Source: Haloarcula pelagica | GTDB taxonomy: Archaea; Halobacteriota; Halobacteria; Halobacteriales; Haloarculaceae | Length of the DNA: 64,000 nt | Direction: 5' to 3' | NCBI RefSeq assembly: GCF_030127105.1 | Contig: NZ_CP126162.1 | Coordinates: 186,001 to 250,000, forward strand | Shown here: piece after piece, positions 42,775 to 54,356 of the stretch | Layout of the letters: each line of letters starts with the position of its first letter | Numbering within the stretch: the stretch's first letter is position 1 | Notes under the pieces: generated by a model | Told to the model about the DNA's origin: nothing | Database searches by the model: none | What the model saw: the letters and a program-made list of their open reading frames with translations, nothing else | Position numbers and translations under genes: made by a program

Positions 42775-42934
42775 CGATCGGTTCCTCCCCATCGGTCGCG
42801 TCGAACAACGCACGACGGCCGGTTCGACCGTCGTGGCGGCTGTCCCGAACCCGGTCAAGCCCGGATCCGTCGCGCCTGCCGCCTGCCCGACCACCGCCGT
42901 CACCCCCGGGACCGTCCGTAGCGAGTTCGATCAT
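42767..42934 (-). CDS. Possible 55-aa bridging ORF between arsR and arsM
   Basis: Starts ATGATC, where its ATGA overlaps the arsR stop codon, and ends TGA inside the first codons of arsM, so it exactly bridges the two genes. The product would be MIELATDGPGGDGGGRAGG..., rich in Gly, Arg and Asp, ending GEEPIDA. No family recognised. Third-position GC is visibly lower than in the neighbouring genes, which argues against strong coding selection. It may be a translated coupling peptide or chance. Confidence 0.25.
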   Translation of the reverse strand: MIELATDGPGGDGGGRAGGRRDGSGLDRVRDSRHDGRTGRRALFDATDGEEPIDA

Positions 42935-43326
42935 CGGTCGCCCCGCGTCTCGTCGAGGGCCGCCAACAGCGCTTCGGCACGGTCGGTCGCCTCGTAGTAC
43001 CGCCACGTCCCGTCCTTGCGACGGGTGACGAGGCCGGCGTCGTAGAGGTCCGACAGCGCGTGGCTGATCGCACTGTCGCTGACATCGACGACCGGATTGA
43101 TCTCACAGACACACAACTCACGGTCCGCAGCCGTCAGCAGCCGGACGATCGCGTATCGCGTGTCGTTGCCCAGTGTCTTGAGCGCGCTGAGATCGGTGTC
43201 GGCGTCCGCGGGAGCCGCCGACTGGTACGAGCGCAGCGAGTCCAGGCGGTCCTCGATGTCGGCCTCGCAGCACCCGCCGCTTTCCTCGGTGATGAGTCGT
43301 TCGAGTCGGTCCGTCTGTGAGCTCAT
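42931..43326 (-). CDS. arsR: ArsR-family repressor
   Basis: Winged-helix metalloregulator, 131 aa. Core reads LKTLGNDTRYAIVRLLTAAD, then ELCVCEINPVVDVSDSAISH and ALSDLYDAGLVTRRKDGTW. The ELCVCE motif is the classical As(III)/metal site of the alpha3 helix, and an extra Cys pair lies near the N-terminus (GGCCEAD). It would release DNA on binding arsenite and so induce arsM and ACR3 downstream. ATG at 43324-43326, with TATA TTATATGA about 24-31 bases upstream and an inverted repeat between TATA box and start. Confidence 0.88.
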   Translation of the reverse strand: MSSQTDRLERLITEESGGCCEADIEDRLDSLRSYQSAAPADADTDLSALKTLGNDTRYAIVRLLTAADRELCVCEINPVVDVSDSAISHALSDLYDAGLVTRRKDGTWRYYEATDRAEALLAALDETRGDR

Positions 43327-45192: not shown

Positions 45193-45358
45193 CCCCTCGG
45201 GTGGCCGTTCGCGCAAGACAACTCCCGTAGAACAGGGGACAACCTCACCCGCAGTAACCAAAGTCAACTACTCCTCTAGTGGGGTGATGCCGCGGCAACT
45301 ACAAATCGCAGCCGATGTAAGGCAAAATTACTTGCGTCGGAGGCCCGGAACACAACCA

Positions 45359-46174
45359 ATGGCGAAGAACGCGGACGACACCGACGAGTTCGGCGTCCTC
45401 CGGAGCAAGCGAAACGCGACACGGTATCAGATCCTGGTCCAGATCGCGGAGCGACAGCCCGCGGTGAACCAACAGGAGATCGCGGACGCAATCGGGATCA
45501 CCGCCCAGGCAGTGAGCGACTACCTCCAGACCCTGAGCGAGGAGAACTACGTCACCAAACACGGCCGTGGTCGGTACGAAGTGACCAAAGAGGGCGTCGA
45601 CTGGCTGATCTCACAGACGGACGAACTGCGCCACTTCGTGGAACACGTCGCCGAGGACGTGATCGGTCAGGTCGAGGTCGAGACCGCGATCGCGACGACG
45701 GCGATCGACGAGGGCGAAACCGTCTCGCTGACCATGCAAGACGGGGCCTTACGCGCCATGGCCGGCGACACCGGGGACGCGACCGCGGTCGCGGTGACGG
45801 ACGCCGAGGCGGGCCAGGATGTCGGGATCACGAACTTCGAGGGTGTCGTCGATTACGAGCTAGGGTCGGTGACTGTCGTCTCGATCCCGCAGGTCCAGAA
45901 CGGCGGGAGTTCGGCGGTCGACCCCGCGCGGGTCTCGGCGTTGGTCACGGACCACGACCTGCTGGCGGTCGGCGGCGTCGAGGCGATCGCGGTCGCCGAG
46001 GCGGTCGGTCTCGACCCCGACATCCGCTTCGGGAGCGCCGCCGCCGTCCAGGAAGCGGCCGCGAAGGGACTGGACATCCTGTTGCTCTGTGCGACGGATC
46101 GGCTCTCCGAACACACAGACTCCCTCCGGGAACACAACCTCAGCTACGAAGTCGTCGACGTGGTGGACGCGTAA
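45359..46174 (+). CDS. COG1497-type archaeal transcriptional regulator
   Basis: 271 aa. An N-terminal winged helix (TRYQILVQIAERQPAVNQQE, then IADAIGITAQAVSDYLQTLS) is followed by a second domain of about 190 aa with DGALRAMAGDTGDATAVAVT and LLAVGGVEAIAVAEAVGLD, typical of the uncharacterised archaeal COG1497 family. TATA-like AAAATTAC lies about 29-36 bases before the ATG at 45359-45361. It sits upstream of and convergent with the DsrE-like/TusA pair; whether it controls the sulfur genes is unknown. Confidence 0.75.
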   Translation: MAKNADDTDEFGVLRSKRNATRYQILVQIAERQPAVNQQEIADAIGITAQAVSDYLQTLSEENYVTKHGRGRYEVTKEGVDWLISQTDELRHFVEHVAEDVIGQVEVETAIATTAIDEGETVSLTMQDGALRAMAGDTGDATAVAVTDAEAGQDVGITNFEGVVDYELGSVTVVSIPQVQNGGSSAVDPARVSALVTDHDLLAVGGVEAIAVAEAVGLDPDIRFGSAAAVQEAAAKGLDILLLCATDRLSEHTDSLREHNLSYEVVDVVDA

Positions 46175-46236: not shown

Positions 46237-46824
46237 TCAGACCAGCAGTTGGATGTCGGCGTCGGCCATATCCTGCAGGGCAGTGGCCGCGCCGACGCCC
46301 GTGGTGACGCCGTCGTAGAAGTCGTCCTCGTCGTAGCCCATGAGGTCGATCGTCATCTGACAGGCCTGGAACTCCACGCCCATGTCCAGGCTCGTCTCCA
46401 GCAGTTCCTCGATGGTGGCGGTGTCGTTGTCGGCGATCTTCTTCTCCATCATCCGGGTCGTCATCCGGTCCATCCCCGGGAGCGCGGCGACGGCGTTTGG
46501 CACCGGCATGTTGGGGTTGCCGACCGAACTCAGCTTGAGGTCTTTCGACCGCTCCTCGTGGAGGATATCCAGCCCCCAGAACGTGTGAAAGACGGTCACG
46601 TCGTAGCCGAAGGCGGCGGCGGTGCTGGCGAGGATCAACGGCGGGTAGGCCATGTCCAGTGTCCCCTTCGTCGCGATGATCGACAGCTTCCGCTGGTCGT
46701 CGTCCGACTGTGCCTCGGCGAGTGCGGTTTCGAGCTCGTCCACGCGCGCGGCCAGTTCCGCGCGCGAGGGAGCGTCGGCGTCCACCGAATCCGTGCTCTC
46801 GTCGGCCGTCGTATCGGTGCTCAT
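46237..46824 (-). CDS. DsrE2-like sulfurtransferase subunit
   Basis: 195-aa DsrE/DsrF-like protein of the DsrE2 (COG2210) type. After a disordered acidic N-terminus and a short coiled segment (RAELAARVDELETALAEAQS), the core starts LSIIATKGTLDMAYPPLILA and includes DVTVFHTFWGLDIL and the conserved Cys motif EFQACQMTIDLMG. Partner genes encode TusA and a rhodanese, the rhd-tusA-dsrE2 set known from sulfur-oxidising prokaryotes. Start ATG at 46822-46824, two bases after the tusA stop. It would carry protein-bound persulfide in the cytoplasm. Confidence 0.82.
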   Translation of the reverse strand: MSTDTTADESTDSVDADAPSRAELAARVDELETALAEAQSDDDQRKLSIIATKGTLDMAYPPLILASTAAAFGYDVTVFHTFWGLDILHEERSKDLKLSSVGNPNMPVPNAVAALPGMDRMTTRMMEKKIADNDTATIEELLETSLDMGVEFQACQMTIDLMGYDEDDFYDGVTTGVGAATALQDMADADIQLLV

Positions 46825-46826
46825 CG

Positions 46827-47072
46827 TTACTCCGTCTTGCGGACGTAGTGGGTATACACGTCGTCCCCGTCCACCTGATCGAGGAGTTCGACGCCGGGGG
46901 TCCCCGAGGCCCAGCCGTCGATGTCGCTCATGCTGCCCGGGTCCGTGGCGAGGACTTCGAGCACCTCGCCGGCGTCGAGGTCGTCGATCGCCGTCTTCGT
47001 CTTGACCACCGGCATCGGGCACGATGCGCCTTGTACGTCGAGTGTCTCCGCGATGTCGTATTCAGTACTCAT
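46827..47072 (-). CDS. tusA: TusA-family sulfur carrier
   Basis: 81-aa TusA/SirA-like protein with the CPxP sulfur-carrying site in VQGASCPMPVVKTKTAIDDL. Length and fold pattern are typical. ATG at 47070-47072. Upstream on the coding strand lies TATATTGC (47111-47118) and a TACCC-T-GGGTA palindrome. It forms an operon with the DsrE2-like gene and is divergent from the rhodanese/persulfide-dioxygenase operon. Likely role: relay of sulfane sulfur to thiolation or oxidation enzymes. Confidence 0.87.
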   Translation of the reverse strand: MSTEYDIAETLDVQGASCPMPVVKTKTAIDDLDAGEVLEVLATDPGSMSDIDGWASGTPGVELLDQVDGDDVYTHYVRKTE

Positions 47073-47116
47073 TGGGTATCCGCTCCGTTGTATTGTATTG
47101 GAGCTATCGAGCAATA

Positions 47117-47127
47117 TACCCTGGGTA
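47117..47127. promoter_or_regulatory. Palindrome in the divergent sulfur-gene promoter region
   Basis: TACCC-T-GGGTA, an 11-base perfect palindrome overlapping the TATA-like element of tusA, 45-55 bases before its ATG. Candidate operator for a regulator of the tusA-dsrE operon. Confidence 0.35.
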
Positions 47128-47317
47128 GTAAAAAGAATGTTGGTTCTTGTACAATCGTCAAACAACTACGCCCACCACGATCTCGACGTACAGCTCTCGT
47201 CTATGTTTTGAGGGCTGAGCGTCGTCTTTGTGGGCGTTCGGAGGAGGGTGTATTGTGTAGTTAGTGAAAATCTATGAAAACGCTTTAGTATGCCCACCCG
47301 ATACGTGAGTGTACGAG

Positions 47318-48511
47318 ATGAATCCCGAAGACTTCCCGACCCCCGACGCGGACGTGGAGACAGTCGACCCGGTGACGCTGAAAAGCCGCATCGACGACGG
47401 TGAGGACGTAACGTTACTCGACGCCCGCATGGCGTCTGAGTACGAGGAGTGGCACATCGACGGCGACACCGTCACCTCGCTCAACGTTCCGTACTTCGAG
47501 TTCCTCGACGACGACATCGACGACGAGGTCCTCGCGCAGGTCCCCGACGACCGCGAGGTGACCGTCCTCTGTGCGAAAGGCGGCGCCAGCGAGTTCGTCG
47601 CCGGGACCCTGGCCGACCGCGGCTACGATGTCGACCACCTCGACGGCGGGATGAACGGCTGGGCGGAGATCTACGAGGCGGTCGAGGTCACGGACTACGA
47701 GGGCGCGGGGACGCTCCTGCAGTACCAGCGCCCGTCGTCGGGCTGTCTCGGCTACTTCCTCTACGACGACGGCGAGGCCGCGGTGATCGACCCGCTGCGG
47801 GCGTTCACCGACCGGTACCTGGACGACGCCGACGAACTGGGCGTCGACCTCCGGTACGCGCTCGATACGCACATCCACGCCGACCACGTCTCGGGCGTGC
47901 GCAAACTGGACGAGCGGGGTGTCGAGGGCGTCGTCCCGGCGGCGGCGGTCGACCGCGGTGTCACCTACGCCGACGAACTGACGACGGCCGCCGACGGTGA
48001 CGAGTTCCGGGTCGGCGAGGCGACCATCGAGACGGTCCACACACCCGGCCACACCACGGGCATGACTTCCTATCTCGTCGACGGCGGCCTGCTTGCGACC
48101 GGTGACGGCCTCTTCGTCGAGAGCGTCGCCCGCCCGGACCTCGAAGAGGGCGACGACGGTGCCCCCGAAGCCGCACGGCTGCTCTACGAGAGCCTCCAGG
48201 AGCGTGTCCTGTCGCTGCCCGAGGACACGCTGATCGGCGGCGCGCACTTCAGCGACGCCGCAGCGCCGGCCGCCGACGGGACCTACACGGCACCGATCGG
48301 CGACCTCGTCGCGGAGATGGACGCGCTGACGATGGCCGAACAGGAGTTCGTCGACCTGATCCTCTCGGACATGCCGCCGCGGCCGGCCAACTACGAGGAG
48401 ATCATCGCCACCAACCTCGGCCAGAACGCCGTCGACGACGACGAGGCGTTCACGCTCGAACTCGGTCCGAACAACTGTGCAGCGAGCCAGGAGTCGCTGG
48501 CGGGTGACTAA
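47318..48511 (+). CDS. Rhodanese - metallo-beta-lactamase fusion, persulfide dioxygenase type
   Basis: 397-aa fusion. Residues about 15-115 are a rhodanese domain with catalytic Cys in VLCAKGGASEF. From about 130 a metallo-beta-lactamase domain follows: DTHIHADHVSG, VHTPGHTTGMTSYLV, LLATGDGLFVES and a late GGAHFSD supply the metal ligands of glyoxalase II/persulfide-dioxygenase (ETHE1-like) enzymes. It may oxidise or transfer persulfide sulfur delivered by TusA/DsrE. ATG at 47318-47320 was preferred to a GTG three codons upstream. TATA CTTTAGTATG lies about 27-36 bases before it. Confidence 0.83.
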   Translation: MNPEDFPTPDADVETVDPVTLKSRIDDGEDVTLLDARMASEYEEWHIDGDTVTSLNVPYFEFLDDDIDDEVLAQVPDDREVTVLCAKGGASEFVAGTLADRGYDVDHLDGGMNGWAEIYEAVEVTDYEGAGTLLQYQRPSSGCLGYFLYDDGEAAVIDPLRAFTDRYLDDADELGVDLRYALDTHIHADHVSGVRKLDERGVEGVVPAAAVDRGVTYADELTTAADGDEFRVGEATIETVHTPGHTTGMTSYLVDGGLLATGDGLFVESVARPDLEEGDDGAPEAARLLYESLQERVLSLPEDTLIGGAHFSDAAAPAADGTYTAPIGDLVAEMDALTMAEQEFVDLILSDMPPRPANYEEIIATNLGQNAVDDDEAFTLELGPNNCAASQESLAGD

Positions 48512-48517
48512 GTGCCG

Positions 48518-49075
48518 ATGGTAGCAGATACAGCCGTCCTGCAGATCGCCCCGGAGCTGTTTCCCAACGGTATCGGCCGCTACGCCGTCGGTGGTCTGCT
48601 CGTCGGGCTCGGCGTGGTGGTCATCTATCTGGGGACCGGCATCAGCGCCGGCGCGAGCACCTTCCTGGAGTCGACGCTGTCGTACGTCTCCGAGCAGTCC
48701 CGGTTCCAGCGATACGTCGCCTCGCGGGACTGGCGCCTCGTGTTCACCGCCGGGATCGTCCTGGGTGGGTTCCTGTTCGCGCTGACGGTCCAGTCCGGTC
48801 TGCTGTCGAGTTCGCTCTACCAGCCGGGGACCACCGGACAGCTCCACCAGCTCGGCGGGTTCACGTTCTGGACGACGAACGTCCAGCCGTGGCGGCTGTT
48901 CCTCGGCGGGACGCTGGTCGGGATCGGCACCCGGATCGGGAAGGGGTGTACCTCGGGCCACGGCGTCTGTGGCGTCGGTTCGGCCTCCAAGACATCCATC
49001 GTGGGCGTGCTCACGTTCCTCGCGGTCGCCATCGGCACCGCACAGATCGTCGCGGCGCTGGGGGTGAGCCCCTGA
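48518..49075 (+). CDS. YeeE/YedE (TsuA-like) permease half, N-terminal part
   Basis: 185-aa membrane protein with about four or five hydrophobic segments (VGGLLVGLGVVVIYLGTGIS, LVFTAGIVLGGFLFALTV) and the conserved Cys-containing turn IGKGCTSGHGVCGVGSAS. YeeE/YedE proteins take up thiosulfate; bacterial TsuA is one chain of about 330-350 aa, whereas here two adjacent half-size genes carry the motifs. ATG at 48518 preferred over a GTG two codons earlier. The TGA overlaps the next ATG (TGATG). Confidence 0.82.
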   Translation: MVADTAVLQIAPELFPNGIGRYAVGGLLVGLGVVVIYLGTGISAGASTFLESTLSYVSEQSRFQRYVASRDWRLVFTAGIVLGGFLFALTVQSGLLSSSLYQPGTTGQLHQLGGFTFWTTNVQPWRLFLGGTLVGIGTRIGKGCTSGHGVCGVGSASKTSIVGVLTFLAVAIGTAQIVAALGVSP

Positions 49076-49533
49076 TGGCGGACCGCCACCCGCTGTTCAA
49101 GCCGCTGATCTTCGTCGGCGGCCTGATCTTCGGGTTCGGGCTGGGCTTCAGCCACATGGCGCGGCCGGAGGTCGTGCTCCAGTTCCTCCAGTTCGAGGAC
49201 TTCGGGCTGGTGTTCGTGATGTTCGGGGCGGCGATCGTCTCCGGCGTCGCCTTCGCGGTACTGCCCCGGATCAGCGACCGGGCACCGCTGACCGGCGACG
49301 CCTACGAGCGCCGTCTGAAAGCCTTCGACCGGAACGTCCTGATCGGCGGCGGGATCTTCGGCGTGGGCTGGGGGCTGTCCGGGATCTGCCCGGGAGCGGC
49401 CTACGCCAGCCTCGGTGTCGGCAACGTGACGATCCTCTGGGCGCTGGCCGGGATGTTCCTCGGCGCGTACGCACAGGGGTACTGGCGGAGTCGAGCGGCA
49501 GACGCCGGTCCCGCTGTCACGGGGGCGGACTGA
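49075..49533 (+). CDS. YeeE/YedE (TsuA-like) permease half, C-terminal part
   Basis: 152-aa membrane protein with helices FKPLIFVGGLIFGFGLGFSH and LVFVMFGAAIVSGVAFAVL, and a second conserved Cys turn WGLSGICPGAAYASLG. It overlaps the preceding half by one base, so the two subunits are probably made in equal amounts and assemble into one thiosulfate-type transporter. The adjacent TusA gene fits the TsuA-TsuB pairing known in bacteria. Substrate inferred. Confidence 0.82.
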   Translation: MADRHPLFKPLIFVGGLIFGFGLGFSHMARPEVVLQFLQFEDFGLVFVMFGAAIVSGVAFAVLPRISDRAPLTGDAYERRLKAFDRNVLIGGGIFGVGWGLSGICPGAAYASLGVGNVTILWALAGMFLGAYAQGYWRSRAADAGPAVTGAD

Positions 49534-49555
49534 CGCGACAACGCACGATATTCGC

Positions 49556-50736
49556 ATGGAACCCGCAGTAATCGGCCTGTTTCTGGTCGCCGGAGTGGCG
49601 AGTTTCTTCATGGCCTGGGTGATCGGTGCCGGCTCCAGCGGCGCGACGCCGTTCGCTCCCGCAGTCGGTGCGAACGCCATCTCGACGATGCGGGCGGCCT
49701 TCGTCGTCGGCCTGCTCGGGTTCGCCGGCGCTGTCGTCCAGGGGGCGAACGTCTCCCAGGCGATCGGCAGCGGCCTCGTCGGCGGCGTCACCCTGCCGGT
49801 GACCGGCGTCATCGTCGTCCTGCTGATCGGCGCCGGTCTGATGGCGCTTGGGATCAAGACCGGCTACCCGATCGCCACGGCGTTTACCGTCACCGGTGCC
49901 GTCGTCGGCGTCGGGCTGGCGATGGGCGGCTCGCCCGTCTGGTCGAAGTACCTCCAGATCGGGACGGTCTGGGTGTTGACGCCGTTCGTCGGCGGCGGGA
50001 TCGCCTACGGGATCGCCAGTGTCCTGCCCCGGCCGGACGTGCCCGAGCGCTACAGCGTCGCCGTGCTCGCCGGACTCGTCGGCGCCGTGCTCGCGAACGT
50101 CAGGTTCGCGTCGCTCGGACCGGGGGCGCGATGGGGTCGCTGGTCGGAGCCGGCCAGCGGGCGATCGGTGTCGACGGGATGGCGGTCCCGGTCGCACTCT
50201 CGGGGCTGCTGGCGGTCGCGGTCGCCGGCGTCGTCTCCTGGGACATCCGGCGGGACCTGGACGGCGGGCTCCGGCGCGTCCTGCTGGCGCTTGGCTCGCT
50301 CGTGGCCTTCTCGGCGGGCGGGAGCCAGGTCGGGCTCGCCGTCGGGCCGCTCGTCCCGCTGCTCGAACAGGCCGAGGTCGTCTCCCTGCTCGCGGTCCTG
50401 CTCGGTGGCGGGCTCGGCATGCTCGCGGGCTCCTGGACCGGCGCGCCGCGGATGATCAAGTCCCTGTCGCAGGATTACTCCTCGCTCGGGCCGCGCCGTT
50501 CGATCGCCGCGCTGGTCCCGTCCTTCCTGATCGCACAACTGGCGGTGCTTCTGGGCGTCCCGGTGTCGTTCAACGAGATCGTCGTCAGCGCGATCATCGG
50601 CAGCGGGGCCGCCGTCGGCGGTGGCGAGGCGGTGAGCGGCCGGAAGATCGGGCTGACCGTCGGTGCGTGGGCCGGTTCGTTCGGCCTGGCGTTCGTGCTG
50701 GGCTACGGGCTCGCTCACGCCGTGCCGATGGGCTGA
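49556..50736 (+). pseudogene. PiT-type anion permease split by a frameshift
   Basis: Two overlapping frames together encode one PiT (inorganic phosphate/sulfate) permease of about 393 aa. Frame one runs from ATG 49556 through MEPAVIGLFLVAGVASFFMA and GATPFAPAVGANAISTMRAA to LANVRFASLGPG. Frame two resumes AMGSLVGAGQRAIGVDGMAV and continues to the TGA at 50736 with VSFNEIVVSAIIGSGAAVGG. The break lies at a run of five G at 50122-50126; one more G would restore a continuous LGPGGAMGSLV. Both halves keep good codon bias, so the lesion is recent, a sequencing error, or a slippery site. In its place after the YeeE genes it may transport sulfate, thiosulfate or phosphate. Confidence 0.82.
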
Positions 50737-50768: not shown

Positions 50769-51461
50769 TTACGAGGACTCGTCGGGGAAAGCCCGCGTCG
50801 CGGTCGCCTTGAACGACACGGCGATCGGATCACCGCGCTCCAGTGCCAGCGTCTCGACGCTCGTCTGTGTCACCAGTGCCCCCACGGCGATGTCGGCGCC
50901 GATGTCGACCGTGACGCGCGCGACGGCGTCACCGACAGCGATATCGCCGACTGTGCCCCGAAACCGGTTGCGGGCGCTGGTCTCGGTCTCCGGGACGCTC
51001 CCCGCAGGATGGAGCGTGACGGCGTCTTCCCGGACCGAGAGTCGAACCCGGTCGGTCGCGGCGGGCACCATCGCCCGGACGGGGCCGGCGTCGGTCTCGA
51101 CCGTCCCGAGTTCCCCGTCCCGTTCGACGACGGTCCCGTCCAGTACCGTCTCCTCGACTTCGGTCAACCCGGTGAACTCGGCCCGGACGCGGTCGAACTC
51201 CGCGAGGAGGTCGGTCGCGGTCGCCGTCAGCGAACTGCCGCCGCCGCCGGCCCCGCCGCGCTGTCGGTCGACCAACTGGCCCAGGGCGGCTTCGAGTTCG
51301 ACGACCCGCTGTTGGGACCGCGAGTACGAGCGGTCCAGCGCGGCCGCGGCCCCGTTGAGCGAGCCCTGCTCCCGGACCGCCCTGAGCAGTTCCACGTCCC
51401 GCCGAGTGACCCGCACCTCGTCCGTGTCGAGGTGGGCGTCGAACGCCGCGTCGAGGTCCAT
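50769..51461 (-). CDS. ModE-type regulator with TOBE domains
   Basis: 230-aa regulator. The N-terminal LysR/ModE-type helix-turn-helix is RDVELLRAVREQGSLNGAAA, then ALDRSYSRSQQRVVELEAAL; the C-terminal part holds two TOBE-like (molybdate-binding) segments, ending VGALVTQTSVETLALERGDP. It probably senses molybdate or tungstate and controls the divergent ABC importer. ATG at 51459-51461 was chosen; upstream in-frame sequence overlaps the importer gene. The 64-base intergenic gap carries a 19-base inverted repeat. Confidence 0.82.
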   Translation of the reverse strand: MDLDAAFDAHLDTDEVRVTRRDVELLRAVREQGSLNGAAAALDRSYSRSQQRVVELEAALGQLVDRQRGGAGGGGSSLTATATDLLAEFDRVRAEFTGLTEVEETVLDGTVVERDGELGTVETDAGPVRAMVPAATDRVRLSVREDAVTLHPAGSVPETETSARNRFRGTVGDIAVGDAVARVTVDIGADIAVGALVTQTSVETLALERGDPIAVSFKATATRAFPDESS

Positions 51462-51505
51462 ACGGGCGTCTCGCGGCCCACGAGCAAAACGGTTATGCCG
51501 CTGTC

Positions 51506-51524
51506 GACACAACGCCGATGTGTC
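51506..51524. promoter_or_regulatory. Inverted repeat at the start of the Mo/W importer operon
   Basis: GACACA-ACGCCGA-TGTGTC, perfect 6-base arms, ending one base before the binding-protein ATG and downstream of a TATA-like GGTTATGCC (51491-51499). Its position over the transcription start suggests a repressor site, possibly for the ModE-TOBE protein. Confidence 0.45.
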
Positions 51525-51525
51525 T

Positions 51526-52470
51526 ATGGGGAAACAACGGAGGGAAACACCGCATCGATCCCGCCGGGGGTTCCTCCGGACGGCCGGCGCCGCGGCCGGC
51601 GTCGCGCTCGCGGGCTGTCTCACCAGCGGACGGCCCGCGACCGGTTCGCCCGTGACGGTCCTCGCGGCCGGCAGTCTCCAGCACGCCCTGGAGACCGGTC
51701 TGAAACCTGCGGTCGACGCGTCGCTCCGGGTCGAAGCACACGGCTCGGCGACGGTCGCCCGACTGGTGGCGGAGGGCCAGCGCGACCCCGACATCGTCGC
51801 CGTCGCCGACACCGCGCTGTTCGGGGAACCGCTGTCGGTGCCGTGGTACGCGGTCTTCGCGAGCAACGCGGTCGTCCTCGCGTACAACCCGGACACCGAC
51901 GGCGGGGAGCGGGTCGAAGCGGCGGGGAGCGACCGGTGGTACGAACCGCTGCTCGCGGGGGAAGTCGCGCTCGGCCGGACGGACCCGGACCAGGACCCAC
52001 TGGGCTACCGGACCCTGTTCGCGCTCGAACTCGCGTCGCGGTACTACGACGACGCGCCCGACCTCCGGGCGACGCTGCCGGCCCGCGACCAGGTGTATCC
52101 GGAGACGGGGTTGCTCAGCCAGTTCGAGACCGGGAGCGTCGACGCCGCCTTCGCCTACCGGAACATGGCCGTCGAGCGCGGCTACGACTACGTCGAGCTC
52201 CCAGGGCAGATCGACCTCGGCGACCCGGCGTACGTCGATGAGTGGTATTCGACGGTGTCGTACGAACTGGCCGGCGGCCGGCGGATCGACGGCGGGCTCA
52301 TCGGCTACGGCGCGACGATCCGAACGTCCGATGGGCCGGCCCGTGCGGTGTTCGACCGCCTCGTGGCCGGGTCCTACCTGGCCGATTCGGGATTCCTGCT
52401 ACGCGAACAGTTCCCCCGGTACGCGGGCGACGTGCCGGCGGCCGTCGACACGGCAACCGGAGGTGGGTAA
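51526..52470 (+). CDS. Molybdate/tungstate ABC transporter binding lipoprotein
   Basis: 314-aa extracellular oxyanion-binding protein. Tat lipoprotein signal SRRGFLRTAGAAAGVALAGC with the acceptor Cys near 31. Mature domain begins VTVLAAGSLQHALETGLKPA, typical of ModA/WtpA; further on are GSATVARLVAEGQRDPDIVA and YRTLFALELASRYY. Archaeal members bind tungstate and molybdate, and which of the two is not visible here. First gene of a three-gene operon, three bases before the permease start. Divergent from the ModE-TOBE regulator. Confidence 0.83.
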   Translation: MGKQRRETPHRSRRGFLRTAGAAAGVALAGCLTSGRPATGSPVTVLAAGSLQHALETGLKPAVDASLRVEAHGSATVARLVAEGQRDPDIVAVADTALFGEPLSVPWYAVFASNAVVLAYNPDTDGGERVEAAGSDRWYEPLLAGEVALGRTDPDQDPLGYRTLFALELASRYYDDAPDLRATLPARDQVYPETGLLSQFETGSVDAAFAYRNMAVERGYDYVELPGQIDLGDPAYVDEWYSTVSYELAGGRRIDGGLIGYGATIRTSDGPARAVFDRLVAGSYLADSGFLLREQFPRYAGDVPAAVDTATGGG

Positions 52471-52473
52471 CCG

Positions 52474-53277
52474 ATGGCGACACGCACACACGCCGGCCGG
52501 CTGCAGTCGCGCGACTGGCTCTCGGTGGCGCTCGTCCTCGGCGGACTGTTGGTCCTCTACTACCTCGTCCCGCTCGCGTCGCTGCTCCTGTCGGCTTCGC
52601 CGGGGGCTGTCCTCGGGCGGCTGGCCGACCCCGCCGTCCGGAGCGCCGCGGGAACGTCGCTGCTGTCGGCGTCGATCACGACCGTCCTGGCCACGGTGTT
52701 CGGGCTCCCGCTCGCGTACTGGCTGGCCCGCACGTCGACTCCCTGGAAGCCGCTCGTCCTCGCGGTCGTCGTCCTGCCGCTGGTCGTCCCGCCGACCGTC
52801 GGCGGGGTCGTGTTGCTCACCGTCGTCGGCCCGAACACGCTCGTCGGCGGGACGGCGGCGGCGCTGGGGCTCCCGCTGACCCGCTCGCTGGCCGGCGTGG
52901 TACTCGCCCAGACGTTCGTGGCGTCGCCGTTCGTCGTCGTGACGGCCAAAGCCGCCTTCGAGAGCGTCGACCGGACGCTGGAACACGCCTCCCGGTCGCT
53001 GGGTAAGAGCAGGCTGGCGACCGCCAGGAACGTCACCCTCCCGCTGGCCGGCCCGGGCATCGCCGCCGGGGTGACCCTCGCGTTTGCGCGGTCGATCGGC
53101 GAGTTCGGCGCCACGATGATGGTCGCGTACTACCCGCGGACGCTGCCGGTCGAGATCTGGGTCTCGTTCGTCTCGACCGGCCTGGACGCGGCGTATCCGG
53201 TCGCGATCCTCCTGGTCGTCGTCGCGGTCGGCGCACTGCTCGTCCTCAACACCGTCGCGGCCAATCCCTGGGAATGA
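52474..53277 (+). CDS. Molybdate/tungstate ABC permease
   Basis: ModB/WtpB-like permease, 267 aa. Helices include SVALVLGGLLVLYYLVPLAS and LVLAVVVLPLVVPPTVGGVV; the cytoplasmic EAA-type loop reads EHASRSLGKSRLATARNVTL, followed by FARSIGEFGATMMVAYYPRT, which is characteristic of molybdate/tungstate permeases. The ATG overlaps nothing upstream (three-base gap) but its end overlaps the ATPase start by four bases (ATGA). Confidence 0.85.
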   Translation: MATRTHAGRLQSRDWLSVALVLGGLLVLYYLVPLASLLLSASPGAVLGRLADPAVRSAAGTSLLSASITTVLATVFGLPLAYWLARTSTPWKPLVLAVVVLPLVVPPTVGGVVLLTVVGPNTLVGGTAAALGLPLTRSLAGVVLAQTFVASPFVVVTAKAAFESVDRTLEHASRSLGKSRLATARNVTLPLAGPGIAAGVTLAFARSIGEFGATMMVAYYPRTLPVEIWVSFVSTGLDAAYPVAILLVVVAVGALLVLNTVAANPWE

Positions 53278-54356
53278 CACTGGAACTCACACGGCTCGCG
53301 AAGTCCTACGGCAGCTTCGACTTCGGCCCGGTCGATCTGACGGTCGGGCAGGAGGTCCTCGCGCTGCTTGGCCCCTCCGGGAGCGGGAAGACGACGCTGC
53401 TCTCGTTGATCACCGGGATCACGAGCCCCGATACGGGCTCGATCAGCCTCGACGGCCGGGCGCTGTCGGGGGTCCCACTGGAGGCGCGACGGGTCGGGAT
53501 GGTGTTCCAGGACGGGGCGCTGTTCCCGCACATGACGGCTCGCGAGAACGTCGCGTACGCGGGGGCCGACGGCGACCGTATCCGCGAACTGGCGGCCCTG
53601 CTCGAACTCGACGGCGTCCTGGATCGCACCCCCGACACCCTCTCCGGCGGGGAACGCCAGCGGGTCGCGCTCGCGCGGACGCTGGCGGCCGACCCGGACG
53701 CCCTGTTGCTGGACGAACCGCTGTCGAGCCTCGACGCACCGATCCGGCGCCGTCTCCGGGAGGAACTCCACGGGCTGTTCGACTCGCTTTCGATCCCGGT
53801 CGTCTACGTCACCCACGACCAGCGGACGGCGACGGCCCTGGGGGACCGACTCGCCATCCTCCGGGACGGCGGCCTCGAACAGGTCGGGCCGCCGCCGAGC
53901 GTGCTGGACCGACCGGCCAACCGGTTCGTCGCCCGCTTTACCGGGAACGAGAACCGCTTCGACGGCCACGTGACCGAGCGGACCGACGATGGGGCACTCG
54001 TTCAGGTCGGCGAGAAGACGCTCCGGACCGCCGTCGTCGACCCGCCTGCGGACGCCGTCACCGTCTGTCTCCACCCGTCGCGGGTGACACTCCACACTCC
54101 CGGCGCGGCCCCCGACCCCGAGGCGGCCGGCAAGGCCGACGGCTTCGGCACAGCGAACGTCCTCACCGGCACGGTCACGCGTTGGTTGAACGAGGGGACG
54201 AGCTACCGGGTCGCGGTCGAGTGCGGACCACTCACCGTCACGGCGACCGTCCACCCGCCCGTCTTCGACCGGCTCTCGATCGACACCGGGGAGACGGTTC
54301 GCGTGTCGCTCCCCCGGGAGTCGATCCACCTGCTCGGAGCCGGCGAGGCACCGTGA
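53274..54356 (+). CDS. Molybdate/tungstate ABC transporter ATPase
   Basis: 360-aa ATPase. Walker A LLGPSGSGKTTLLSL, Q-loop VFQDGALFPHMT, signature LSGGERQRVALARTL, Walker B LLLDEPLSSLDAPI, switch THDQRTATALGD. The C-terminal 130 residues form a TOBE-like regulatory region (GNENRFDGHVTERTDDGALV and LTVTATVHPPVFDRLSI). It drives the importer encoded just upstream. The gene ends 10 bases from the convergent nucleoside hydrolase. Confidence 0.86.
   Translation: MTLELTRLAKSYGSFDFGPVDLTVGQEVLALLGPSGSGKTTLLSLITGITSPDTGSISLDGRALSGVPLEARRVGMVFQDGALFPHMTARENVAYAGADGDRIRELAALLELDGVLDRTPDTLSGGERQRVALARTLAADPDALLLDEPLSSLDAPIRRRLREELHGLFDSLSIPVVYVTHDQRTATALGDRLAILRDGGLEQVGPPPSVLDRPANRFVARFTGNENRFDGHVTERTDDGALVQVGEKTLRTAVVDPPADAVTVCLHPSRVTLHTPGAAPDPEAAGKADGFGTANVLTGTVTRWLNEGTSYRVAVECGPLTVTATVHPPVFDRLSIDTGETVRVSLPRESIHLLGAGEAP

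Follow-up and report, generated by a model that had tools for sequence, protein, structure and literature searches.

The window analysed here, a 64,000-nt stretch of Haloarcula pelagica DNA that is part of contig C2 of a haloarchaeal genome (4 contigs, 4.46 Mb), includes a six-gene set encoding a DsrE2-like protein, the sulfur carrier TusA, a rhodanese/metallo-beta-lactamase fusion protein, two half-size YeeE/YedE permeases and a PiT-family permease. As judged by protein families and gene context, this set is fairly likely to represent the core of a haloarchaeal module for the import and oxidation of sulfane sulfur, working in the manner of the BigR/Pmp and Cst systems of bacteria and probably controlled by a thiol-sensing TrmB-type repressor. 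A broader proposal, which we regard as evenly balanced, is that of an archaeal reactive-sulfur regulon, in which a CX5C TrmB-family protein would sense persulfide or polysulfide and act via TWTTG-N10-ACAATA inverted repeats to control zero-valent sulfur import, persulfide oxidation, SQR, CoA-disulfide/persulfide reduction, thioredoxin and sulfite export across haloarchaea, with a PiT protein of non-phosphate signature as its sulfur-oxyanion transporter.

The six-gene core

Open reading frame and Pfam checks confirmed that the six genes named in an earlier first-pass annotation of the window lie where it had placed them, with dsrE2 and tusA, both leftward and 2 bases apart, divergent from the rightward fusion, YeeE pair and PiT genes. 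A search with the fusion protein, whose matching relatives were all haloarchaeal, led to 80 named loci, which together with the window and a chromosomal paralogue (L105) make up 82. Because the fusion served to select the loci, counts taken from them measure association and not prevalence, and since several end at contig ends the gene counts are lower bounds. TusA is encoded in 79 of the 82 loci, each YeeE protein, and the pair, in 76, DsrE2 in 74 and PiT in 53, and the complete set is found in 52; tusA is divergent from the fusion gene in 79 of 79. Given these frequencies and the constant divergence, the arrangement is not due to chance, and the six-gene set is common in haloarchaea. In a whole-genome search, a fusion match (E ≤ 0.001) was found in 40 of 41 genomes, many of them to fusion paralogues only, and similar DNA was present in 118 plasmid records, of which 43 cover at least 80% of the locus. 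Halobacterium and like genera also carry it (L041, L145). In four relatives (G003:C4, G009:C6, G015:C3 and G016:C3) the fusion-gene match is split into several open pieces, and hence core copies seem to decay. Public annotation labels the parts singly, for example as 'MBL fold metallo-hydrolase' or 'helix-turn-helix domain-containing protein'.

The fusion gene (47318–48511, + strand; a GTG start is possible at 47309) encodes a probable persulfide dioxygenase (PDO), as indicated by Pfam and PDB matches and by its ligands. Its N-terminus is a rhodanese domain of PF00581 (4e-12), found together with a Lactamase_B domain (5e-12), and its nearest solved relatives (3TP9, 2GCU, 4CHL, 5VE3 and BpPRF) are PDOs, ETHE1-type or PDO-rhodanese proteins. 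The predicted metal ligands follow the HxHxDH plus His/Asp/His pattern of the ETHE1/PRF/CstB type: H185, H187, D189 and H190 are present in 80 of the 82 fusions and H245, D263 and H310 in 78, the remainder being gaps and not substitutions. Cys85 of the rhodanese domain is kept in all 82. The sulfur oxidation foreseen for this locus would be assigned to the fusion protein, which differs from Blh of the bigR operon, scoring 37.6 of 625 bits on the DUF442-ETHE1 model (NCBIfam NF040641).

The two YeeE/YedE permeases, of 187 and 152 aa, are encoded on the + strand at 48512–49075 and 49075–49533. The first is of the C-terminal-half type (PmpA/YedE1-like), matching positions 179–306 of the 310 in the Sulf_transp profile, and the second is of the N-terminal-half type (PmpB/YedE2-like), matching positions 12–103 of that profile as well as DUF6691 (1.2e-18), though both exceed the Sulf_transp threshold of 27 bits only slightly (29.9 and 28.0 bits). 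The YedE1E2/PmpAB type is expected to have a single conserved cysteine per half; here Cys146 and Cys153 of the first permease (YeeE1) are invariant in 33 sequences, and Cys105 of the second (YeeE2) in 29, these being possible equivalents of Cys91 and Cys293 of TsuA. PmpA and PmpB likewise cover opposite halves of Sulf_transp, whereas TsuA is a protein of 330–350 aa (PMC11582611) with three conserved cysteines. The pair thus appears to match the PmpAB/YedE1E2 type, for which import of zero-valent sulfur is predicted, and not the thiosulfate transporter TsuA. According to PMC10812762, half-size YedE1E2 pairs of Cupriavidus and Sinorhizobium sped both polysulfide uptake and the oxidation of added polysulfide by persulfide dioxygenase, whereas full-length YedE3, which is the thiosulfate type, did neither.

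These findings bear on the TsuA-type thiosulfate importer of the first-pass annotation, and on a function in which the YeeE pair would import thiosulfate, TusA and DsrE2 would relay its sulfane sulfur and the fusion would oxidise it. The YeeE/YedE superfamily and TusA are indeed present, and rhodaneses can use thiosulfate. However, the half-size pair is not TsuA, YedE1E2 is not the thiosulfate type of PMC10812762, the TusA protein is not TsuB-like (18.9 of 147.5 bits on the TsuB/YeeD model, NCBIfam NF041048) and DsrE2 is of the one-Cys kind. The TsuA-type importer is accordingly not supported and thiosulfate import with oxidation considered unlikely, while the transferase and dioxygenase parts of the original sulfane-sulfur import and handling locus, with their conserved metal ligands and the cysteines of rhodanese, TusA and YeeE, are retained.

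The tusA gene (46827–47072, − strand) encodes a TusA sulfur carrier (Pfam TusA, 2.3e-20) with a CPMP motif and a single cysteine, and the CPxP cysteine is present in all 79 TusA copies. The DsrE2-like protein (46237–46824, − strand; Pfam DrsE_2, 1.7e-52) scores 160.7 bits on the NCBIfam DsrE2 equivalog model, below its cut-off of 210. It is DsrE2B-like, having one conserved cysteine (73 of 74 copies), whereas DsrE2A has two that are strictly conserved (PMC4175335). Its best PDB match is 2QS7 (SSO1126 of Sulfolobus, 4.9e-12), named DsrE2B in the same report, and the subtype is assigned tentatively, by that best match. As the Metallosphaera DsrE2B (Mcup_0682) reacted with none of the sulfur compounds tested in PMC4175335, the single cysteine and the match to 2QS7 give DsrE2 no firm role. 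Transfer of sulfur as protein persulfide, as proposed earlier, is weak where it would pass through DsrE2.

The PiT permease gene (49556–50736, + strand) is present as predicted but is not intact. PHO4 is matched in both halves, which lie in two frames (49556 to about 50130 and 50131–50736), and the sole internal gap relative to the chromosomal paralogue is one missing base (alignment position 563, near 50118 of the window). The frame break may be real decay or a sequencing error. In related copies, PiT is in one frame in 47 of 53, is split in L039, L043, L049 and L057 and ends at the contig end in L048, making it the core gene repeatedly split across frames (the window and the four loci). The GAND signature occurs in both repeats of the phosphate transporter 6L85, in the first at the corresponding alignment position, but was found in none of the 47 intact PiT relatives, while IGAGSSGA and FSAGxSQVGL were found in all 47. 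Because of this absence, the substrate is better guessed as a sulfur oxyanion than as phosphate. On the CysP profile (NCBIfam NF053884), the two frames of the disrupted window PiT reach 49 and 31 of 400 bits. The same non-GAND signature recurs in another PiT gene, at C1:1919746–1920822 (L108).

In the proposed mechanism, zero-valent sulfur in the form of poly- or persulfide would enter via the YedE1E2-like half-permease pair, and would be passed to TusA and, through the rhodanese domain, to a small thiol. The metallo-beta-lactamase domain would oxidise the resulting persulfide to sulfite, which would exit via TauE and perhaps via an intact PiT, and sulfide would join the pathway through the SQR of the chromosomal copy. 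A thiol-sensing TrmB-type repressor would probably bind a 21-bp operator at each promoter; the recurrence of this motif is observed, whereas its binding by the repressor, the signal and the direction of control are inferred.

Operator-like motif and candidate regulator

The predicted operator TATTG-N11-CAATA, a 21-bp palindrome with no strand assigned, lies at 47096–47116 of the window, 23 nt upstream of tusA. It is exact in 69 of the 79 tusA-rhd intergenic regions and within 2 mismatches in the other ten, at 13–25 nt from the tusA start across loci, whereas among 500 shuffles the exact motif turned up in 0.028 of the 79 regions on average and in 2 at most. About 11 nt upstream of the palindrome is a TATA-like stretch, which would put the transcription start within the palindrome, as for a repressor. 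The palindrome-only pattern has three sites in the genome, namely at the two tusA copies and at C2:110978, and the last, beside a gene that we take to be fumarylacetoacetate-hydrolase-like, is taken as chance.

Allowing one mismatch, a scan of the loci found like sites at other sulfur promoters, in L105 at those of tusA, rhd, tusA2-SQR and TauE/Usp. PDO, SQR and TauE would hence share a common operator in L105, as in a Cst-type system, as judged by the motif. From six sites of L105 the pattern WNTTKSN8YACAATA was written, and the second predicted operator of the window, which matches it, is located at 47251–47271 (− strand), 46 nt upstream of the fusion gene. In the 4.46-Mb genome the pattern has 10 matches, all 10 beside sulfur genes, as compared with 2 for the reversed control. 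Six are in L105 and one is at the rhd promoter of the window. In L107, one precedes a YgaP-like membrane gene that adjoins a TusA-SQR pair, and of the two in L136 (C2:281–284 kb) one separates a TrmB-type gene from a thioredoxin gene and the other precedes a TauE gene. The L107 site and the two L136 sites are the three that are independent of the design of the pattern. With so few matches, all at sulfur genes, a general promoter element was rejected as the identity of the motif.

The same association was seen in other genomes. The 80 named loci have 157 sites, of which 150 lie near module genes (reversed control, 1). In 24 relatives there are 83 matches, and 53 of these are no more than 15 kb from a match to the fusion gene, in zones that make up at most 1.4% of bases (reversed control, 27). 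When applied to four annotated plasmid regions, the strict pattern gave nine sites, all nine upstream of module genes (control, 0); among the annotated plasmid regions, L145 had no site. With a matrix built from the tusA sites alone, 200-nt upstream regions were scored as passing when above the 99% shuffle limit, and those that passed were 25 of 35 for Usp, at most 16 of 22 for CoA-disulfide-reductase-like (CoADR) genes, with L032 and L044 left out of the corrected count, 9 of 22 for aminotransferase and 7 of 30 for thioredoxin. The recurrence of the motif at sulfur genes points to an undescribed sulfur-sensing regulon.

Its regulator is likely a protein of the TrmB family in which two cysteines are invariant and which is related to but distinct from OxsR. 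Cys15 and Cys21 are invariant in 17 sequences and Cys32 nearly so; both cysteines of the motif CEGLLECFHGL are present in 37 of 37 and the third cysteine in 34 of 37. The genome encodes two strong copies, at C1:1570875 and C2:280792 (280 and 252 bits, the next scoring 48.5), and both adjoin predicted operator sites. In L104, the predicted operator is flanked directly by tusA on one side and by the regulator gene on the other.

Several observations weigh against this assignment and against the module as a whole. The core proteins reach no NCBIfam equivalog cut-off, PDB sequence searches with the half-permeases gave no match, with no solved TsuA matched, and AlphaFold gave no usable model of the first half-permease (pLDDT 47.6). 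The six L105 sites, on which the pattern was tuned, are not independent evidence, and the other 30 of the 83 matches in the 24 relatives lie far from any fusion gene. The rhd-side site is weaker, passing the 99% shuffle limit in 25 of 78 regions (L104, with a 3271-nt gap, was left out), and few TauE (1/36) and SQR (1/20) upstream regions pass. These two low rates probably arise because the sites precede an upstream gene of the operon; in L146 the predicted site is 87 nt before a small gene and 239 nt before TauE. The promoter of the regulator itself carries a variant ending ACAATT, 39 nt from the start, and 0 of 32 regulator upstream regions pass the limit. Another regulator could bind the motif.

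Chromosomal copy, neighbouring genes and other functions

A second six-gene core is present in the same genome in L105 (C1:1571000–1590000), where the five proteins that are intact are 81–91% identical to those of the window. It is flanked on one side by genes for CoADR, M20, methyltransferase, SQR, TusA2, thioredoxin and SufS-like proteins, and on the other by MFS, Usp, TauE and TrmB-type regulator genes. On the respective models the SQR scores 336 of 525 bits (type III), the CoA-disulfide reductase 445 of 579 and the SufS-like desulfurase 173 of 475. Across 81 loci, the window left out, neighbours include TauE (38), Usp (35), thioredoxin (33), TrmB (33), CoADR (24), aminotransferase (22) and SQR (20). 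As L105 lies among SQR, CoADR, thioredoxin, desulfurase-like and TauE genes, sulfide and persulfide oxidation with detoxification fits best, and the company of the locus is, by its predicted products, that of sulfide and persulfide homeostasis. On contig C2, the window copy provides another set of the core, in which both predicted operators are kept and PiT is broken. A third sulfur locus (L107, 6173–8858) encodes TusA, SQR type III, a 206-aa protein and the YgaP-like membrane protein whose gene has a predicted operator site.

The desulfurase-like and TusA2 genes of the chromosomal locus would suit a supply of sulfur for biosynthesis (tRNA thiolation, molybdenum cofactor, Fe-S), in which import and TusA relay are assimilatory and the dioxygenase trims the excess. 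However, SQR and TauE belong to the same set, and the molybdate transporter beside the window copy does not adjoin the core in other loci, making this function improbable. Energy-yielding, lithotrophic sulfur oxidation as in rhd-tusA-dsrE2 clusters, with the sulfur entering a dissimilatory pathway, is the least probable of all, for although the gene names resemble those of such clusters and SQR is encoded on the chromosome, the genome has no DsrC (0 matches; sHdr was not searched for) and the neighbours are detoxification and thiol-reduction genes.

Directly after PiT, at 50769–54356 of the window, are genes for a ModE-like regulator and a molybdate/tungstate-type ABC transporter; as ModABC/ModE do not adjoin the core in other loci, they were dropped as a part of the system. 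A regulator of the ArsR/SmtB family, which has a CC pair close to the N-terminus, is encoded at 42931–43326, and was dropped as a BigR equivalent (32.3 of 155 bits for BigR). The convergent gene for a DUF7839 regulator (45302–46174) adjoins the core only in loci belonging to this same genome.

Comparison with known systems

The sensing and detoxification of sulfide and persulfides in haloarchaea are hardly described in the literature searched, and no description of the regulon was found there, subscription papers being mostly outside that search. The new, testable part is the regulon with its candidate thiol sensor, and the locus-wide predicted operator and a named candidate make it directly testable. 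If the proposal is true, a regulator family would be newly tied to sulfane-sulfur sensing, and TrmB-type thiol switches would join CstR, BigR/SqrR and SurR.

OxsR of Haloferax volcanii, a thiol-based regulator of the TrmB family, resembles the candidate in being a single winged-helix TrmB protein with an aligned cysteine, as Cys21 aligns with the cysteine of 3R0A to which OxsR C24 is aligned in PMC9426492. However, OxsR has this one cysteine where the candidate has two that are invariant, and a single-Cys protein like OxsR, the next TrmB homologue in the genome (L140), is encoded separately. The OxsR motif is CG-rich (PMC9426492), whereas the motif putatively linked to the candidate regulator is an AT-rich inverted repeat.

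TsuA/TsuB (YeeE/YeeD) of thiosulfate uptake share the permease superfamily and a TusA-fold partner with the window locus, but the permeases here are a half-size pair and TusA is not TsuB-like. The likeness to the rhd-tusA-dsrE2 clusters of sulfur oxidisers, pointed out in the first-pass annotation, extends to the adjoining TusA and DsrE2 and the nearby rhodanese domain, and does not include the one-Cys DsrE2, the lack of DsrC and the fusion of the dioxygenase to rhodanese.

Precedents for the module are YedE1E2 with PDO (PMC10812762), yeeE-yedE-pdo2 (PMC7315123) and the cst operon (PMC5480029). As in the yeeE-yedE-pdo2 (BigR-controlled), pmpAB and YedE1E2 operons of Proteobacteria, two half-size YeeE/YedE proteins are encoded with a persulfide dioxygenase, but here rhodanese PF00581 replaces DUF442, a divergent tusA-dsrE2 pair and PiT are added, the candidate regulator is of the TrmB and not the ArsR type, and the host is archaeal. 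In the cst operon of Staphylococcus aureus one sulfur-sensing repressor, CstR, controls a persulfide dioxygenase-transferase, SQR and TauE, as is predicted here, although the fusion order and the regulator family differ and the YeeE pair and DsrE2 are added. By analogy, the haloarchaeal module would work like the Pmp/BigR and Cst systems, while being a member of neither by the tests made.

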